Assembly (NCBI RefSeq): GCF_000003815.2
Contig: NC_049996.1
Coordinates: 18,452,968-18,516,967 of the forward strand
Origin: Branchiostoma floridae
Lineage: Eukaryota; Chordata; Leptocardii; Amphioxiformes; Branchiostomatidae
DNA length: 64,000 bases
Reading direction: 5' to 3'
Shown here: positions 1,465-37,500 of the stretch, in pieces
Layout of the letters: each line of letters starts with the position of its first letter
Numbering within the stretch: position 1 is the first letter of the stretch
The notes under the pieces: generated by a model
Seen by the model: the letters and a program-made list of their open reading frames with translations, nothing else
Told to the model about the DNA's origin: nothing
The model's database searches: none
Position numbers and translations under genes: made by a program

Positions 1465-3090
1465 TGTAGACCCTTAAGCTATGGGCGGTTCCACACATCT
1501 AAATACCTGACACCATTCTATTGTTTGGTAGGATTGTCTACGCAACAGACAACCATCGCAGAACAAGATTCCGAGACAACTCGGCACCTGGGACGACTGG
1601 GCCCCTGAACAATCAGGACAACTCGGCACCCAGCGCAGGTCAACTCGGCACCTTAGTTTTGGACATGTCCGAGCAACAAAATATAGATAATATACAGCCA
1701 TGAAAGAACGGTGGACACTTTCATAATTTTTATTCTTCAATTCGACTTTATGTCCACGAACAGGACCGGAAGCTTTACTTTCAACTTTAACCTTTCTGTG
1801 ACCTGGCGTTGTTTCAGTCCTTGATTTCAGGAAGCCTCTAAATGTCTCAATATCGGCTATCATAGAAGCTCATCTGTGTTTGTAGTACTCATAGCTATAG
1901 TTCAATACTAAATTTTCTTCCAACACAGAGGTATACACTCCGGGATGAAATTTTTAACGACCACTGACATCTCCTTCTTCGGGGTCAAACTAAAATGATC
2001 GTATTAAAAACGTTTGGAAGTACGTGATTGAACATTATTGATCCTAAAGAAGGCAGCAGTGGTTGCTGAAGTGAAAAGTTGATCCGTACGTTGTTGCATA
2101 CTTTTGTGTTTGGAGAAAGTTTAGTATTGTTTGAAAACGGCTATCACGTATTGTTTGACTTGATGGCTTTGGTTCTTTTCAGCAGTCTTTTGCGTCCCGC
2201 TACTAGTCCATGGTCTTACATGGATCACAACAGATCACAAACAAACCAGCCCACTCATTTGTCTGGAGATTGACTCTAAGAAAAGCATATCTTCAACTCA
2301 AACAACAGTAGACGAGTTTGTGTCGTTTTCAAATCAAAGAGACCCAAAAACAAGTTGCCAGCCTTAAAAAAAGCACCCGAGGAACTGGTTTGAATATAAG
2401 TCAACTTTTAAGCACCTCTGTACCAGTGACCACTACTAGGGTTGCTTTCGATCGTTCTTTTTTGTCTTGGAGACATGTTTTGCACTGTGTTGATTTTCGA
2501 AATGTTTAAGTTCTCAAACGGATCATATTTTTGTTCAGTTTGTGACGTATTTAAAAAATATCACTGGCAGGGGTGCGTGTGATGTATCATTGTAGCCCAG
2601 AGTGAAAATTGGACAGACGTACCTGAATACGGGCTTCGGAAGGAAGGCAGCTTCAGGCCTGTAGAATCCCTGTCTTCACTCTTGCAGTTATTACGTGATG
2701 TGCTTCTTATTCTCTCAATCATTGATATGCAGAAAACGTCACGATTTTCTATCAGACAGTGAATCATGATTGGCTAAAGGTGACAGCGAAGCTTGATCTG
2801 CAATGATTGTCTGTTGAGTAGACAATTTATTGAAAATCAACGCTTCGGTGTCAGGTATGAGGAACCGCCCCAATTTTAAGAAACAAGAAGTCTGCACAGA
2901 AAATCAGACAACTTTTAGTCATAAATACATAATTGCCCGCTTGCTGCATGCAGTATGTGTATGATATGTATCAAGACATGCTCAATAAAGACATGGACAG
3001 ACAATCCCGAGATGAAAAGAATCTGAGTGATTCAGGAGCTTCCAAACCCGTCTGACAACTTTTGAATCTTTATAAATCGGAGAGACTCCC
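1465..3090. other. No gene seen upstream of DDAH
   Basis: Holds three short CAACTCGGCACC repeats (1578-1653) and at 1859-1930 a small element (GAAGCTCATCTGTGTT...CCAACACAG) that recurs near 22518 and 23864. No coding exon could be supported. Confidence 0.5.
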
Positions 3091-3095
3091 CGCCC

Positions 3096-3102
3096 TATAT
3101 AA
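3096..3102 (+). promoter_or_regulatory. TATA box of the DDAH gene
   Basis: TATATAA lies 57 bases before the DDAH start codon, which would place transcription start near 3126 and leave a short leader of about 30 bases. A second weaker match (TTTATAAAT) lies at 3069. Position and context support it; not tested by transcript data. Confidence 0.5.
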
Positions 3103-3158
3103 CAGAGGCGCCTGCAGTCATATACAGGGGGCCATCAGAGTATTTCAATACTAGAAAC

Positions 3159-6100
3159 ATGGCGGACATCTGGAACTTTCCCGAGTTCACACGGGCAGTC
3201 GTGCGAGAGGTTTCAGATAACGTCAACAACGCAACGCGAAGCCCGATTTCCACGGAAGACATTGACCTGGACAAGTGCCGGGCTGAGTGGGAACTCTACG
3301 TGCAGGTATAGCAACAAACAATCGGTGTTCTGTCTACAATGTTGTTGATTAGGTTGAACACTTTTTATGTTACAGAAGGGAACATATTGTTTTTGCTTTG
3401 TTTCTTCTTCTTTTCCGCACAAATAAGGTCAACGACCTGGACCAGACGGCTGTCACCATGGTAACAGGTAAAGTAGCAGGCACCATGTGGTGTTCGGTTA
3501 CATAATGTAGCAAATGTCAGATCTAGAGGGGCTCGGGTCACTACATTTAGAAATGTGTTCAAATAAGAATGAACAAAACAGTTGCCAGTGTTAGACTACA
3601 ACATGTGAAGGTAACATTCTGTATTTGCTTGCAAATATTACCTTTCTAGTTCTTTGATTGTGTAACTGTAAAGCCTTTGTGGGCAGAAGTCGAAGATACT
3701 CATTATCATTGACAATACAAGATGTCATTCATTCTGGGGTACCATATTTGTAATATAAAACAGTTCCAATACATTAACGAAATGATATTGCTGGGGAAAT
3801 TCACCATTGGTAAGTTTAAATATGGAAACACTCATATGGACTTAGTTACATTGTTCAAATCTGAATGTTCTTTAAGAAATCTATGAAGAATTGATTGTAT
3901 ACACATGTCCCATACAGAATGAGCAATAAAGTTTTATCATTAAAAAAAAAACCTCTACGTGCAGACGCTACGGGACCTGGGTCTGGACGTGACGGTGATT
4001 CCGCAAGACCCCAGCCTGCCCGACTGCATGTTCGTGGAAGATTCATGCATCGTGGTTGGAGACACGGCGCTCATCACGAGGCCCGCATGCGGACCCAGGC
4101 AGGGGGAGGTCAGTGATGTCATGTTAACTGTTTCAATATTGATTGAATGAATGAAGACATTTATTGCACATTTTTGCCACACTGGGCTAAGTACAGGTCA
4201 CAACAAGACATGTTGAAAAGATACAGTAAACAGGTACAAAATGAGACTATTGCTGGATAAATTCAACTTCTCCTCGCTTTTCTGTTATAGTGGAGATAAA
4301 AGAGCAGATATGTTTTATGATCGATGGTTTGTCTAGTTGCATTAGGAATATGAATTTTTCCACAGAACTTAATAGGTGTATGAAATATTACTCACCACTC
4401 TGAAGAAATCATTACTCGTCACTCTGAAAATGCTGTATGTTGTCTATTCCTTCGACTATAATTGTTAAGACAACACGTTGTTGTTCGTCCATCGGAAGTT
4501 GATGAGGACAACACAGAGTTGTTCGATTTCAACCTCTGAGGTTTTTGTTTTTTTGAAATCGAAAATATTCTGAGTTTATCGGTGAAATATTCATTTAGAT
4601 TTCCTTGTACTGTGAGCTATTTTCATTACTCGCCACTCGTGTCATGTTATTGTAAAAATGCTGTTTATTGTTGTCTATCGGTAGACAACACGATTTCAAC
4701 CTTTGAAGAGCAGATGCAAAGGACAGCATGTTCAAATACATGTACACTGACCTTATCTGTTCCTGCTATCCCCCCCCCCCCAAAGTATTCAGATCCAAAA
4801 AAGGAATGAATATGAAGTTAATGAATGAATGAAGACCTTTATTGTACAGTTTTGCCCAACCGAGCTAAGTACAGGTCACAACAAGCCAAAACATATATAC
4901 AATCATATAAAAGTATCACAAATCTAGTCTAACACAGCAGTTCGGCTTCTTCTCGCTTCTTGGTAATGGTGAAAATGTAGGACTGTATGGGTTTAGCTAT
5001 GGTCGGTTTGTCAAAACGCATGAGGAATCAGTTCTTCTCATGTGTCTAAAATGAGGTAATCTACGTTCTATGTAATTAAATAGAGTATTATTAATATTCA
5101 ATGACTCAATCAACCCTTCTTTGTCCACTATCTGTTTAAGAGAATTTAATTAATGAATGAAGACCTTTATTGTACATACATACCCACTGGGTTCAGTACA
5201 GGTCACAATAAATGATACGACATGATATAATGATACAATGAATTTACACTACTCAAGAATCGTATTCTACTGCGTACATTCGGCTTCTTCTCGTTTCTTT
5301 GTGATATTAAAAATGTAAGAACAGATATGCTTTATAAGTAAAGGTTTGTCTAGATTCATAAGGAATATAAATTTGTCTATATTACCAAGGACGTTACATC
5401 AGAAGTAACGTCCTTGATATTACTTAGTGGTATGAAATGGGGGAACATGGATTCTATTAGTCTGTATAGTTCAGCTCTTTCTTTCTTGTACAAACTACAT
5501 TCTACTACAAAATGATGTTAGTCTTCTAACTTATCTAGATTGCAGTATCTATTTTCGTTGTATCTATATTCGTTGTATGTATCTTATCTTCATTTCTTTC
5601 AGACAGCGATAATGGAAGAGATCATGGCGAATCTCGGGCTAAAAGTAAAAGTGGTAGAAAGTGATACAGCCACCCTGGAAGGCGGTGACGTCATTTTTAC
5701 AGGTTGGTAGATTTCAGGATGTCCTTAAAGATGTCTTATTCTGTGCTGTTTCTTATTGATTAACGAAGTTACTGTATATAGAAGGCAGATTGGAATCAAA
5801 AGAGTGTCTCTTTTCCGAAGCATCGAAAGTTCCAAGGAAAGAAAACCGTCTTTGCTCAGATGCAACATTGATATGCAAATTCAATCCTGATTTTAAACCT
5901 GACTTTTTTTGTTATGTTTCCTGTGTTATCTCATGTTAAGGTTAAACTTTTGATTCATTCGTTTGGCAGTATGATTTTACGTTATCTAAGTTAATCTAGT
6001 TTTGTACAGTATTTATGTTACCTAAGTAATTTGGTTTCGTAGAACTTTTTTGTACGATTATGTTATTGAAGTTAATTAGTTGAACTTTATGTATGACTTA

Positions 6101-8974
6101 TGTTCGGGGTTCTCCCTACAGGGGGCTTTGAAAAACGCCGTCAGGCGATATGCTTTCACCCTGGTTGAATAAAGAATAAACAAACAAACAAATGCAAGAT
6201 ATGTATATTTTCCTGGCCACTTGTTTTCAATAAATTCAAAAGAATGAACTTGTGCAAACAAATATTAATACAACTTTATTTTTTTGTTGTTATGTTTTTG
6301 TAGGCAAGGAGATATTCTGCGGCGATTCGGTGTTGAGTAACGAGGAGGGGTTCGCCATCTTGCAGGAGACTTTCCCTGACTACCCGTGCCACTCCATCTT
6401 TGTGGAGTATCCGGAGTTCCATCTGAAGGGGTACATGGCGCTGGCTGCTCCGGGGGTGATCGCCACGTGTGATAATGAGTGGGGGCATCCTGGCTGGAAG
6501 GTCAGCTGTTGTACTTGTTATTACCTTCGCCAAGAAGGTTATGTCTTTTGGGGTAGCCATCCTTCTACTTGGGGACATCCAACGGCGAAACCGCCTGTCT
6601 GGATGTACCTAATCTCCAAGCAGATCCCACGGTAGCATATGCATAAGGTAGTATCAAAAGCTGACAGAGGAGTGAAGCCGGCTTTAGGAGTATGTTTCGC
6701 TACTACATTGCAAATAGACACCATTTAGCTGACTACACTCCATGGCCAGTTTGATCTTATGCCATTGTAGGATCTGCTTTGAGATTAGATGTACCCTGCT
6801 TTCCTGACCACCCTGCTCATAAATATTAATGAGCTTTCTCTTATATATGCGAGATCCCTTTTGAAAACTGAAAATCCTATTCTCTGATTGGCTGACAGCT
6901 GGTTTGTGGCAACGCCCACAGGAACCAAGAGTGACGGTTGAGAAAGCAGGGTACATCCAGACAGGCGGTTTCGCCGTTGGATGTGTCTGCGTAAGAGGAT
7001 GGAACGGAAGTAGCGTTCATTGTATGTATGTTTGTATGTTTTGTTGAAGACCAGCACAACTCGAGAACGCTTGGATGGATTGTATTGATATTCGGTATGT
7101 GGGTAGGGCTAGCTTGGTGACCTAAAAACGACAAGATTTTGCCCCCCTCCCCCACCCCAGCGACTTGTTATGTTTACATTTACCGAAGCTTAACATCATA
7201 AACGCTTTTGATCCGTTTATTCGTCCACTTTAATCCAAGCAAATAAGGGCAATGACCAAGACCAGGTGGCTGTTACCATGGTCACTGGTCAAGGAATAGG
7301 CACCCTGTGGTGTTGGATTACATAATGTAGCAAATGGCAGGACAAAGTTAGAGGGGCTGGTCAACATATACATGTATAAAAGTGTTTGAGTGATGAAAAT
7401 AGTAGTAATTTGTATTTACAAATGTCACCTTTACTAGTTTGTTACCTACTTGAAAACTAGCCTGTGTTTACACAAGCTCTCGCTGGCTGGAGTTAATTAT
7501 GGTGGCGGCAATTGTAGGGCCGGCCGCTAGGGGCGCGATTTTAGTCAGGCTATTTGAAAACCTGGCGTATTGTTTTCAGTCTGTGTGTGTGTGTGTTTGT
7601 TCGTTTGTACTGATGTATATCCATAGAAATCTGTTACAGAAGGAATCATTACATTTTCCCTAATTTTTCTACAACTTCACTGTACAATCAACACTTGTGT
7701 ATAAAGACTCACGAAAATATGCCGTAATACCCCTGTCACATTTGGCGAAAATCGATCGAACGACGATTCTGCGGCAATCGCCCGAGCCTCGCTTATAATA
7801 ATAACTTTATTGCACGACAATTGTACAAGGTACAAAGTATGGCTTATATGTGACAGGGACGGTTTTCAGATGAAAAATATGCGCAACCCTCTGTCGATCT
7901 TAAATATGACCGATCTTCCATCGATACGCCCGAAGATCGTGGATAATGTGACAGGGGTATAACTGCAACTGAAAGAAAACACCACCAACAACAACAGATT
8001 GTCGTGGTAATCTATTTCTGCTCTTGTCGAGTTCCTTTTGTGATTTTATCATCTTGTCCAACCTTGACAGGACATCTGCGACACCTCCAACTACACTTAC
8101 AAGCCCCTTTGGATTCCTGACGACTTTGGTAACAACTGCATGTTCATCAACGGCAACATCATACACACTACAGATGACCAGAAGCCGGACACTTATGCGG
8201 TATGTTCCCTCCACACTATAGTTTTGTTCCTCTCTACTGGGCTGATGTAATCGTACTTTTCATTGGTCACCATTCCTGCTTATCTCATTCTGATTGGCCA
8301 GAGTCCTGTGTGTCTGTCCTTCTGATTGGTTCAAACTTTCAAAAGTCATTAATGCACGTGTGTGTCAGTGAAACTATTAATGCACGGCTGTTAATGATTT
8401 TCCATCCCACGGCATCTGTTACGGCGTCATAGCCAACATGAATTGGGGCCTTCTGATTGGTCTACGTCCCCTGGCGATATGATAATATAGTTTATGGACT
8501 GGTTCAGTTGTTCATGGGTACACAGACAGGGCTTATCCGACTGTACTGGTCAGTGGCTTCAATAAATGACAATAAAAGACAAGATAGATGACAAGACACA
8601 AGACTTCATTTTTCTAACATGGAACATAACATATATATATACCAGTTCAATGATTTAAGTAATTCAACAATATTTACAGTACTACGTGTTCCTCAAATTA
8701 AAAAAAAGTCAATCAATCAATCAATCGTTCGCTGGCATCATAAGTTAATGCATGGCGGCTACAGACAATTTATCATATAATATGATAATAAATCGTAAAA
8801 GAGATAAATGAAAGATATATTTCTGTTGAGTTTGTACTACTGGCGCTAACTTATAGATATTTATTTCTGTAGGTGTTCAAGAAACAGATGGCTGACTACA
8901 ACCTGATCGCCATGCCGACGGAGGAGGTCAGCAAGGTTGACGCAGCCCTGACGTGCCAGTCTATCCTGTTCTGA
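3159..8974 (+). CDS. DDAH: Dimethylarginine dimethylaminohydrolase (DDAH), six exons
   Basis: Hydrolyses asymmetric methylarginines to citrulline and methylamine in the cytosol, relieving inhibition of nitric oxide synthase (family knowledge). Exons: 3159-3305, 3965-4108, 5603-5702, 6304-6500, 8071-8199, 8873-8974; all introns GT-AG and phases agree, giving 272 aa (about 285 in vertebrates). Seen: the LPDCMFVEDS substrate-binding motif (Glu74, Asp75), LEGGD (Asp126), the FHLKG histidine (His170) and the C-terminal KVDAALTCQS motif with catalytic Cys267. These match the Glu/Asp, Asp, His and Cys active-site set of DDAH. The second Cys of the vertebrate TCCS is Gln here. Start chosen at 3159: a TATA box lies 63 bases upstream and the exon runs in frame to a clean donor. 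Exon 1 is the least conserved part. AATAAA signals occur near 9352 and 9382. Intron 1 looks like a recent insertion (see findings). Identity is secure; DDAH1 versus DDAH2 orthology is not decided. Confidence 0.93.
3306..3964 (+). mobile_element. DDAH intron 1: polyadenylated insertion with 12-bp target duplication
   Basis: Exon 1 ends with CTCTACGTGCAG (3294-3305) and intron 1 ends with the same 12 bases (3953-3964). Just before the second copy are AATAAA (3925-3930), eleven bases, then ten A (3942-3951). This is the form of a retroposed RNA: insert 3306-3952, poly(A) tail, target-site duplication. The insert's first bases supply the GT donor and the duplicated target supplies the CAG acceptor, so splicing removes exactly the insert plus one target copy. 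Bases about 3425-3650 resemble 7243-7445 in intron 4, so part of the insert is a dispersed sequence. Confidence 0.7.
4143..4370 (-). repeat. LINE-like 3' end repeat, DDAH intron 2, copy 1
   Basis: GAATGAATGAAGACATTTAT, then TTGCCACACTGGGCTAAGTA, CAGGTCACAAC and a conserved inner part (CAGATATGTTTTATGATCG). On the minus strand it ends in a (TTCA)n tail, as LINE 3' ends do. Confidence 0.65.
4825..5030 (-). repeat. LINE-like 3' end repeat, DDAH intron 2, copy 2
   Basis: AATGAATGAATGAAGACCTT opening, then GCCCAACCGAGCTAAGTAC and TTCGGCTTCTTCTCGCTTCT. Confidence 0.65.
5151..5400 (-). repeat. LINE-like 3' end repeat, DDAH intron 2, copy 3
   Basis: AATGAATGAAGACCTTTATT, CACTGGGTTCAGTACAGGTC, TTCGGCTTCTTCTCG. 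Three copies in one orientation within 1.3 kb of a single intron. Confidence 0.65.
6558..7002 (+). mobile_element. TIR element in DDAH intron 4 (CATCC-TACG family)
   Basis: About 50-bp inverted ends: ACATCCAACGGCGAAACCGC on the left and GCGGTTTCGCCGTTGGATGT on the right. The interior resembles that of 45633-45882 in reverse order (CTGATTGGCTGACAGCTGG). Begins 58 bases after exon 4. Confidence 0.8.
7243..7445 (+). repeat. Second copy of the sequence found in DDAH intron 1
   Basis: Lies in DDAH intron 4 and aligns by eye to about 3425-3650: shared runs include ACCATGGT, GTGGTGTT, GATTACATAATGTAGCAAAT versus GTTACATAATGTAGCAAAT, and AGAGGGGCT. No poly(A) tail is visible at this copy. It shows that part of the intron 1 insert belongs to a repeated family. 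Confidence 0.6.
7727..7960 (+). mobile_element. MITE with 15-bp TIRs carrying a nested insert
   Basis: ATACCCCTGTCACATT at the left and AATGTGACAGGGGTAT at the right. Inside, 7798-7850 is a shorter insert (ATAATAATAACTTTATTGCA) flanked by GCTTAT on both sides, i.e. a LINE or SINE 3' end read on the minus strand. Confidence 0.75.
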
Positions 8975-34500: not shown

Positions 34501-37500
34501 TTACTGAGTTGCCCCTTAGCAGTAGTACCTCTGAATACCATTGATCTTACAGTGTGGAGCAGGCCTCTAGCCAGCTCGAAATTTTTTTCTGTCAGCCAAT
34601 TCCCATTGTCTCGAAAACCGCGAAAATTAAGTTAGAAAGACGGAACTGAGACCTTGAAAAACTGGTTTTTAATGAGATTATCGTATGCGAAAGGGCGCCG
34701 ACACACTAAGTCAACAATCATAACAATAGCAAAACAAACAGTGTGTGGCTTTACGGCTGTGGACAGCATCCCCAAGCCGCCTGTAGCTTCCACCAAGGAT
34801 TTTTGTCTGTCAAGGTTGATGGATTGGTTTTAAAAAATTTCCGTCGCACGCAGCAAATTTCCGTCAATTGACGGAAAAACGGACGCTGGCTAGAGCCCTG
34901 GTGTGGAGTAAATTATTGCAACAACTAGACACAGCAGGCATGACATAAACATTACAAAGACAAAAAAAAATACTAAAGCATCATTCAATGCATTGTTATT
35001 CTGGAATTATGCCATTTGGTTATTTTGTTTTAAAAGTGAAACTCATACAAAGTTTAATTTCAGTGCATTGTGATTAAAGAAATACAAAATTAATGATTAT
35101 TATTATCATTAAATCAACACACTTCTCTGTAAGCCTTTTTATTGTAGAACTATGCCATTTGGTATTTTGTTTTAAAAGTGAAACTCTGGTACAAAGTTAA
35201 ATTTCTGTGCACTGTCCTTAGAAAAATCATGATAGTAAACTTATATGTGCCAAATTAGAAGGAAAAGAAAGGAAGGAAGAAGGAGTTCCATGCATTTTGA
35301 AATTGTGATAGCTAAGGCCTATTTAAGATTGTTAAGGTAATAAGAAGCTACCACAAGACTTTATCCTTCGTAAAATTGTCAAATTCAAACTTAGTGACAT
35401 AATCATATAGTAATGTTTAGAATGAATAGTTCTGAGATACAGTTGGAACTTTCTTGGCTTCCTTAGACTGCAAGAGTTTGTCAATTTGAAACTCAGGAAA
35501 CTGGCAGTATCATGCATGTGTAGAATCAGTGTTCAAAAAGTTATGTTTTCAGAAGCAGCAAAAAAATGAAAATTATAGACTGAAAGATATCCAATCATTG
35601 TATTCTTTTTGGTAGATAATATATGTAAATGTTTTTAAGTTCGCGGGGATTTAATTTCGCGGTAGCGGGAAAAGGATTTTTCGCTGTGGATTTAAGTTCG
35701 CGGTAACACCATGGTAGACTGCAATCTGATATCATAGTAGAAAAATGTTTGCGGTGGTTTTAAATTCGCGGTGAAGTGGTCACCGCGAAAACCGCGAACA
35801 TTAATCCACCGCGAACATTTCTGCATTTACAGTACAATGTCAGGTCCAGAATCTGTAGATTTTGGCCACACACAGAGAAAATGTGACTTGATTTATCAGT
35901 TCTCATAGTCATTCCATACTGTACTTTTAATACTACAGTGCAGAAGTCAGCTCTTCACATACAATGTATGTTTTGCATTATTCCAAAGGTTTTGCACTCC
36001 ATTTTGTTCTGCTTTAAATATCAAATCAAAGTACATGTACAGTGTCTCATACAAATGTAGATAGTTTCCCAGCTTACTCCGAGATGTGTTATATCCACAG
36101 ATGGTTAAACCCACGTGGGTCGCGTAGTACCCACGCTCGAGAAACACACCACAGACCCGGGTAAGGGATCAGGTTACATGTGGTGTTGTACCGTCACGTA
36201 CAAAAAAACCCACTCGGTTCTGACCACACTTTGATTTGCATGACTGTTATTGTCTTGGATCCTGGGAAGAGTTTGTTTGTTGTTGGCATGGTTACGGTTT
36301 GCGGTATTGATAACGTTGTTGTTTGTGATGTTGTTCACCTGCATGGTTCTGTTTTTTGCACCTGAAGGTTTTTCAGTCTTTCAAGTTCACCACTTTTCTT
36401 GTACACATGTACGTGTGTTACCCAAGCAAGAAATGCACATGTTAGAGTTCAGGCTCTCTCCAGGTCTAACTTTGGTTCCCTTTGAATCTCCTGTACGAAC
36501 CTGTCTTTTTGTCAAACTGATCATAAGCTAGCACATGGTTTGAAATGCACCATGCACAGTCAGATGCATTGTGGATGATATGTCAAAGTTGAAGGCTCCT
36601 GAGACATAACCAAAGTACTTGGAAGTTCATGTGTGTAGAAGTCATTCTGAAAAAGATGAACTGTAATTTCCAACACAAAAATTGGACTTACTGGTCAGGT
36701 GCTGTTCAGTCGAAAATTTGATACGTCCAGTTTTTGTTTTGGAAATTACAGTTCAACTTTCCAGAATAAACAAAACACTTAAAATGTCATATATAAAGCA
36801 TGGTCAAGACAAGGACTGTTATTGTGTTAACATGTTGTCAGGGGCCCTCACCTTTGACCTTGCAAATGTGCAGTCTAACCACTGAGCAAGCTTATTTTGA
36901 TGCATCTTACTATACTGTTTTGTTTGTAATTAGCTAGTACAGTACATATTTATTTTGATATGACTGTACTGAATAGAATGGTTTAATACTAGTTGAGTGA
37001 CTTAGGGCAGAGGAAATTTAAAGTTACTAACTACTGTACATTTACAGGGTGTTATTTTGTGTTAGTTTTCTTCTGTTGAAAATAACTCTGTTGATTTAGT
37101 TTATTGAAGAACTATTGCTAACATTTATGGTGATTAAGATTTAACATCATTACATTGATAGTAATATTTGTCATTCAAACTCAGAGATCAGATTTGACAA
37201 TACTGTATATTGTTATCAAGACTGTACTCGGATATGTGCAAGTACTAGACCAAGTTACTAAGCAAACTAGATTCTGAAGTTTAAATCACAAACATACTAA
37301 GTCAAAATAGGATTTTGCTGTCTTTATGAATATTAAATCATCTCTGCATACAAATGTATACAATCATGTAGCAATTGATAATTACAGGACAACTGTACTT
37401 GTTGGTCTGTAGTTTTAAGAACATGCAATTCCTTTCTTTATCATAAAGTTTGCCATTTTGTTAGATTACAAAATATTCTCAATTGATGAGCAGTAAGGTT

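Follow-up and report, generated by a model that had tools for sequence, protein, structure and literature searches.

A truncated L1-type LINE as the probable source of an intron in an amphioxus DDAH gene

The first intron of a DDAH-like gene in Branchiostoma floridae probably began as a truncated LINE that entered a coding exon by target-primed reverse transcription (TPRT), is removable as a GT-AG intron, grew by a nested insertion, and lies at a CAG site that was probably used twice. The gene lies near the start of the 64,000-nucleotide stretch of DNA analysed here (the window). In the proposed sequence of events, a 5'-truncated L1-type LINE would have been inserted by TPRT into an uninterrupted DDAH exon, duplicating 12 bp of target, a step whose traces can be read directly in the DNA. 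By chance, truncation would have left GTATAG right after the first target copy, and the duplication would have ended in CAG. The insert would then be removable as a GT-AG intron with exact restoration of the protein; this geometry is plainly visible, and from it we infer splicing. The later insertion of a 288-bp element into the LINE copy, again legible as such, nearly doubled the intron. Since an older intron interrupts a paralog (L079) at this very codon and in the same phase, the same CAG proto-splice site was most likely used on two occasions.

Results

The DDAH gene and its family

The gene was assigned by a Pfam match to DDAH_eukar over the first 130 amino acids (28.6 bits, cutoff 23). 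Its model joins six exons into an open coding sequence (CDS) of 819 nt, equal to 272 codons plus a stop (Table 1). All genome searches were carried out in one assembly of 513 Mb in 431 contigs, in which 22 protein-search matches were grouped into at least 16 DDAH-family loci, the window gene included. The family looks greatly expanded in this one genome, with several loci on C14, C8 and C6. The window gene is also conserved: comparison with its sister on C17 over 272 codons gave dN/dS values of 0.18/1.37 (NG86). Intron 2 of the window gene contains three repeat copies (window positions 4146, 4824 and 5152) that start AATGAATGAAGAC and extend to GTACAGGTCACAA.

Table 1. Positions in the window of the DDAH exons and of the parts of intron 1.
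Feature	Position	Strand	Remarks
DDAH exon 1	3159..3305	+	49 codons, ATG to CAG; gene model and Pfam DDAH_eukar
Target-site duplication, first copy, CTCTACGTGCAG	3294..3305	+	12 bases that close exon 1
LINE fragment A, ORF2 zinc-finger region, 5'-truncation point	3306..3362	+	82-86% to L044, L045, L046
Nested high-copy interspersed element, 288 bp	3363..3650	+	edges +/- 3 owing to T runs
LINE fragment B, ORF2 C-terminus and stop codon followed by 3' UTR	3651..3941	+	L038 87%, L039 85%, L040/L041 80%
AATAAA polyadenylation signal of LINE	3925..3930	+	common to relatives
Poly(A) tail remnant, A10	3942..3951	+	followed by one extra C at 3952
Target-site duplication, second copy, CTCTACGTGCAG	3953..3964	+	closes intron 1; its CAG is the putative acceptor
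DDAH exon 2	3965..4108	+	48 codons; gene model
DDAH exon 3	5603..5702	+	gene model
DDAH exon 4	6304..6500	+	gene model
DDAH exon 5	8071..8199	+	gene model
DDAH exon 6, with stop codon	8873..8974	+	gene model

Target-site duplication, tail and junctions

Intron 1 (3306-3964) is flanked by perfect 12-bp direct repeats (12/12), and the initial annotation was right that one closes exon 1 and the other the intron. It had also placed AATAAA and a run of ten A directly before the second copy; both are present, but the signal lies 11 bases before the A-run, and an extra C follows the run. Exon 1 ends CAG/GTATAG, the second repeat ends CAG/ACG, and excision of 3306-3964 restores the frame exactly, in agreement with the proposal that the insert provides the donor (GTATAG) and the duplicated target the acceptor (CAG), both of which are putative sites.

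Thirteen A-runs of at least 8 bases occur in the window on the two strands, and two of these have near their 3' end an 11-mer that recurs within 4 kb upstream. One is the run of intron 1; the other belongs to the pair at 35387/38589, where 3 of the 11 letters come from the A-run itself. Random pairings of + strand A-runs gave no such 11-mer repeat (0/204). The second pair, two identical 11-bp stretches about 3.2 kb apart in direct orientation and accompanied by nine A, is possibly another retroposed copy or a product of chance.

L1-type TPRT insertions carry target-site duplications of roughly 7-20 bp, a size range that accommodates the 12 bp found here. The insert also has the poly(A) stretch after a polyadenylation signal and the 5'-truncated LINE 3' end that are expected of TPRT. 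The mammalian L1 endonuclease site resembles TTTT/AA; a site of this kind was not found at the intron 1 target, which reads GGGAA/CTCTACG and so offers only two T at the junction in the strand that is nicked. The insertion may thus be filed as L1-type in the sense of ORF2-related, not of a mammalian-style L1 site, and L1-type elements outside mammals may differ in this respect.

The LINE layer and its relatives

A single polyadenylated RNA of about 647 bases had been envisaged as the inserted sequence. Retroposition into an uninterrupted CDS stands, but the single RNA was rejected: the insert consists of two layers, a LINE of about 350 bp (348 bases and the tail) split by a 288-bp high-copy element (about 3363-3650) that arrived later. 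The suggestion that a source be sought within the genome proved fruitful, leading to the 3' end of an L1-type LINE. The 3' part of the insert detected ten other related places; the first 66 bases of the insert match one of these, and two more match locally.

Fragment A begins with GTATAG, the putative donor, and the corresponding region of L046 has a reading that resembles zf-RVT (18.3 bits, under the cutoff of 27.5). In fragment B, substitutions amount to 10.0% against L038 and 12.2% against L039, the two closest relatives of the window copy. The 3' end GAGCAATAAAGTT is common, by alignment and scan, to six of the ten relatives (L038-L042 and L047); an A-rich tail follows it in L038 to L041 and a T-rich stretch in L042 and L047. 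Exact flanking repeats measure 17 bp in L038, 16 bp in L039, and 9 bp in both L040 and L041. Scans of L042, L044 and L047 found no flanking repeats, and a scan of L075 found no polyadenylation signal. In L039 a short upstream piece matches in the opposite orientation. Inversions at the 5' end are known from L1 insertions, and the L039 arrangement resembles them.

Of the four relatives with both ends located, three, on different chromosomes (L038, L040 and L041), begin almost together, about 3 bases apart at most and some 254 bases before the polyadenylation signal. Such a near-common start suggests that copying tends to stop there or that these are copies of a short non-autonomous derivative. 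The window copy and L039 begin at other points.

Translated, the LINE stretch of the insert is about 40-44% identical to the C-terminal ends of long LINE open frames at other places. In one distant relative, L072, which has a frame of 1174 codons, identity is 43% over the 63 C-terminal residues compared. L072 matches RVT_1 (4.8e-29) and zf-RVT, while its endonuclease match is weak and below the Pfam cutoff. Its best relatives of solved structure are L1 ORF2 proteins (4.7e-79 for human L1 ORF2p vs 4e-17 for R2). Judged by these matches, the inserted element is of L1 type, and the insert is the 3' end of such a LINE that has lost its 5' part by truncation.

Two kinds of change distinguish the window copy. 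Three indels (a 22-bp deletion, a 4-bp duplication and a further 22-bp deletion) are absent from the relatives that cover those places. In a five-copy comparison there were 7 strictly private substitutions in 255 columns, a value from which the true age may deviate in either direction.

The nested element

The 288-bp element occurs in at least 40 other places at 95-99% identity, and in one weaker piece, among the best candidates scored. Comparison of 14 copies shows that 13 start TTATGTTACC and 12 finish CTAGT, in T-rich surroundings. The window copy departs from the majority of 16 copies by 3 substitutions over 287 positions, and two of the three adjoin a small deletion. Since it splits the LINE copy, the nested element must be the younger of the two. 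It contains a strong pyrimidine tract and an AG ending at 3427, with AACAG/GTAAAG 40 bases further on, which together could delimit a cryptic exon (3428-3467). A second, more diverged relative of the element (77%) lies in DDAH intron 4 (window positions 7240-7386).

The empty site and an intron in a paralog

Fourteen of the 16 family loci, including the C17 sister, are uninterrupted at codon 49/50, although L080 is slightly irregular there. The sister reads GGGCTCCTGGTGCAG-ACCATGCGC without a break and represents the empty site. It shares introns 2-5 with the window gene and has a first intron of its own at codon 34/35, which the window gene lacks. That intron is 396 nt long (L076, G000:C17:17415500-17420000, minus strand, 3061-3456) and is possibly a second independent gain. 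In a search for an element origin, only its middle (about 129-332 of 396) proved to be interspersed repeat.

The position of intron 1 is not unique to the window gene: on C18, L079 is likewise interrupted between codons 49 and 50, in phase 0 (AACTACGTACAG/GTACCT ... CACCACAG/GTGCTG). The L079 intron is 4786 bases long, of which 3729 are N. The readable part gave no match to the LINE or to the nested element, and the intron ends have no LINE features, tail or repeat. A search for the last exon of L079 did not find it. That the two introns are one and the same LINE-born intron was rejected, given the lack of such matches in the readable part and a gene split near saturation. As a recent gain would predict, the C17 sister and 13 other loci are uninterrupted; L079, the next closest, has a different intron at this codon.

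In a protein tree built from 9 of the 16 loci, the grouping was (L079,(window,C17)), with support of 100/98 and 96/92. An earlier tree of 10 loci, in which one input residue was in error, gave the same grouping (95/99 and 97/93). Synonymous changes among the three genes are near saturation (NG86 dS 1.29-1.39), the L079 split standing at 1.39 over 196 codons (exons 1-4). The LINE must have arrived long after these gene duplications, because its flanking repeat is still identical at 12 of 12 positions and its private substitutions number 7 in 255, against a dS near saturation. Moreover, the second target copy directly adjoins exon 2; the site was therefore contiguous at the time of target duplication, unless an earlier intron has since been lost with single-base precision.

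Chance re-use of a single site is not very improbable: with 6 CAG, 11 MAG and 18 AG in the stretch formed by exons 1 and 2, the odds of hitting the same one lie between about 1 in 6 and 1 in 18. If the scars of insertion are ignored, a single ancestral gain followed by loss in C17 is equally short in steps. The likeliest history appears to be that one CAG proto-splice site was used twice, by parallel gain or by loss and re-gain, because the site was contiguous at duplication and the LINE postdates the gene duplications. The initial annotation had named orthologous introns lacking both the poly(A) stretch and the repeat as evidence against its reading. The L079 intron comes close to this description, though in a paralog; in our judgement it leaves the insertion unrefuted, since the second target copy borders directly on exon 2 and arose far more recently than the split from L079.

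Evidence on splicing

Intron 1 conforms to GT-AG geometry, with GT at its 5' end, AG at its 3' end and the frame kept. A random insertion would have GT and AG exactly at both junctions in about 1 case in 256, assuming equal base frequencies. The 819-nt CDS is free of frame breaks while the LINE copy has three indels; that all three fall in the LINE has a rough probability of 0.03 if all of them postdate the insertion and both stretches are neutral, but some or all of the indels could predate it. Splicing is putative and rests on the exact restoration of the frame, the intact 272-codon gene and the confinement of decay to the LINE. Since the insertion is young (7/255 private substitutions), the intact CDS by itself is no proof of function since that event.

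Both splice sites look weaker than most in the family. Between -20 and -4 the acceptor has 7 pyrimidines in 17 positions, fewer than any of the 13 other family acceptors examined (9-15); it is pyrimidine-poor because the A-tail occupies the place of the polypyrimidine tract. The donor, GTATAG, has no G at +5; the window gene and the C17 sister together contain 9 other introns, and 8 of these have that base.

Discussion

Alternative explanations

The main rival to the favoured reading, unlikely in our estimate but serious, accepts the LINE insertion and takes it for a recent null allele: the assembly would carry a broken allele of a redundant family member in which the insert is not spliced, or not efficiently, and has GT and AG at its ends by coincidence. 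The weakness of both splice sites and the existence of at least 15 other DDAH-family loci fit this account. So does the apparent age. The heterozygosity stated for sequenced amphioxus species is 3.2-4.2% (PMC12500494); the divergence private to the LINE copy (7/255) and that of the nested copy (3/287) are below or near this range, and it is this proximity that makes a recent broken allele a serious rival. It must, however, put down to chance the two correctly placed dinucleotides (about 1 in 256), and the three LINE indels, the unbroken 819-nt CDS and a second insertion on top of the first point to a period in which the insert was tolerated. Another possibility, which we regard as quite unlikely, is that the intron is ancestral and homologous with that of L079, and was rebuilt, for example by a LINE inserted at the end of exon 1 and subsequent precise deletion of the intron that had been there before. 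L079 agrees in both codon and phase, as this history would lead one to expect, and on presence and absence alone the tree (L079,(window,C17)) allows such a history with equal parsimony. Against it stand the direct junction of the second target copy with exon 2, the contiguous site in the C17 sister, the contrast between a 12/12 duplication and an L079 split near saturation (dS 1.39), and the chance that one site is hit twice (about 1 in 6 to 1 in 18). This explanation overlaps the others, so that the probabilities attached to them need not sum to one.

Two further accounts concern the nature of the insert. A retroposed host mRNA of the processed-pseudogene type, in place of the LINE's own RNA, would have left AATAAA, tail and duplication of the same appearance. 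Yet the relatives read as the C-terminus of LINE ORF2 running into the 3' UTR, and L072 adds reverse transcriptase and zinc-finger matches and the sub-threshold endonuclease match; a host mRNA is very improbable as the source and was rejected, the relatives being LINE ORF2 ends. It is hardly conceivable that the structure owes nothing to retroposition and represents a chance repeat, a tandem exon duplication or the filler of a double-strand break. Staggered breaks do also produce direct repeats at the ends of new introns, as described for Daphnia in the passages cited (PMC4202315), but the filler in intron 1 can be identified as the 3' end of a LINE, terminating at its own poly(A), and relatives have the same 3' end and flanking repeats.

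Comparison with known systems

Introns made from mobile elements are known, and the SINE intron of rice catalase is reportedly one of them; a LINE-made intron with all its scars visible, on an already used position, would be unusual. With L1-type TPRT copies, the family of the intron 1 insert has in common 5' truncation, a poly(A) tail, flanking repeats and, in one relative, a 5' inversion. The window copy differs from the usual L1-type copies in that it sits in a coding exon and has GT-AG intron geometry.

Transposon insertion is among the proposed routes of intron gain and has indirect evidence in its favour according to the sections cited of a review (Yenerall and Zhou 2012, PMC3443670), in which a table gives 35 such gains in Oryza, Drosophila, Oikopleura and Zea. 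As described there, and as in intron 1, an element enters an exon, the target is duplicated, and removal leaves the protein unchanged. The case illustrated in those sections (PMC3443670) duplicates AGGT, whereas in intron 1 the donor would come from LINE ORF2 codons and the acceptor from a 12-bp TPRT duplication. Introners, as portrayed in the part cited of Gozashti et al. 2022 (PMC9860276), are likewise mobile-element introns, some of which take one splice site from the target duplication. They differ from intron 1, a single truncated LINE copy, in that they are families, most of them with a DNA-transposon signature, in which many copies each form an intron (PMC9860276). Shared ends of the Introner kind were not found here: both ends were located in 4 of the 10 LINE relatives, and none of these shares the 5' end of the window copy.

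The new introns of Daphnia pulex, in the portion of the report considered (PMC4202315), resemble intron 1 in being recent and in having short direct repeats (4-12 bp) that the intron end shares with the exon; independent gains at one and the same site are described there as frequent among them. They are ascribed in the same portion to double-strand breaks (PMC4202315), unlike intron 1, for which the inserted sequence and the machinery are identified. A search of open-licence titles and abstracts found, among the matches listed, none on a LINE-made amphioxus intron, on amphioxus DDAH genes or on a comparable case.

Implications

The origin of new spliceosomal introns is debated, and thousands of novel introns are said, in the cited sections of the review (PMC3443670), to defy the proposed explanations. 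In intron 1, the source family, the chemistry of insertion, the target, the donor, the acceptor, the later growth and the empty-site sister are legible in one genome, and, because its position coincides with that of the L079 intron, it offers an opportunity to test the idea of parallel gain at proto-splice sites. The fuller claim, that in an animal a LINE has recently made an intron, possibly still polymorphic, at a codon where a paralog has an unrelated one, we regard as evenly balanced. If the reading is true, a mobile element would have provided the donor and its target duplication the acceptor, and the gene would offer a fully legible parallel gain (or loss and re-gain), which would show that homology does not follow from a shared intron position in paralogs. 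Should the insertion prove to be polymorphic, the empty allele could serve as the reference for measuring how efficiently a new intron is spliced and how it affects fitness.
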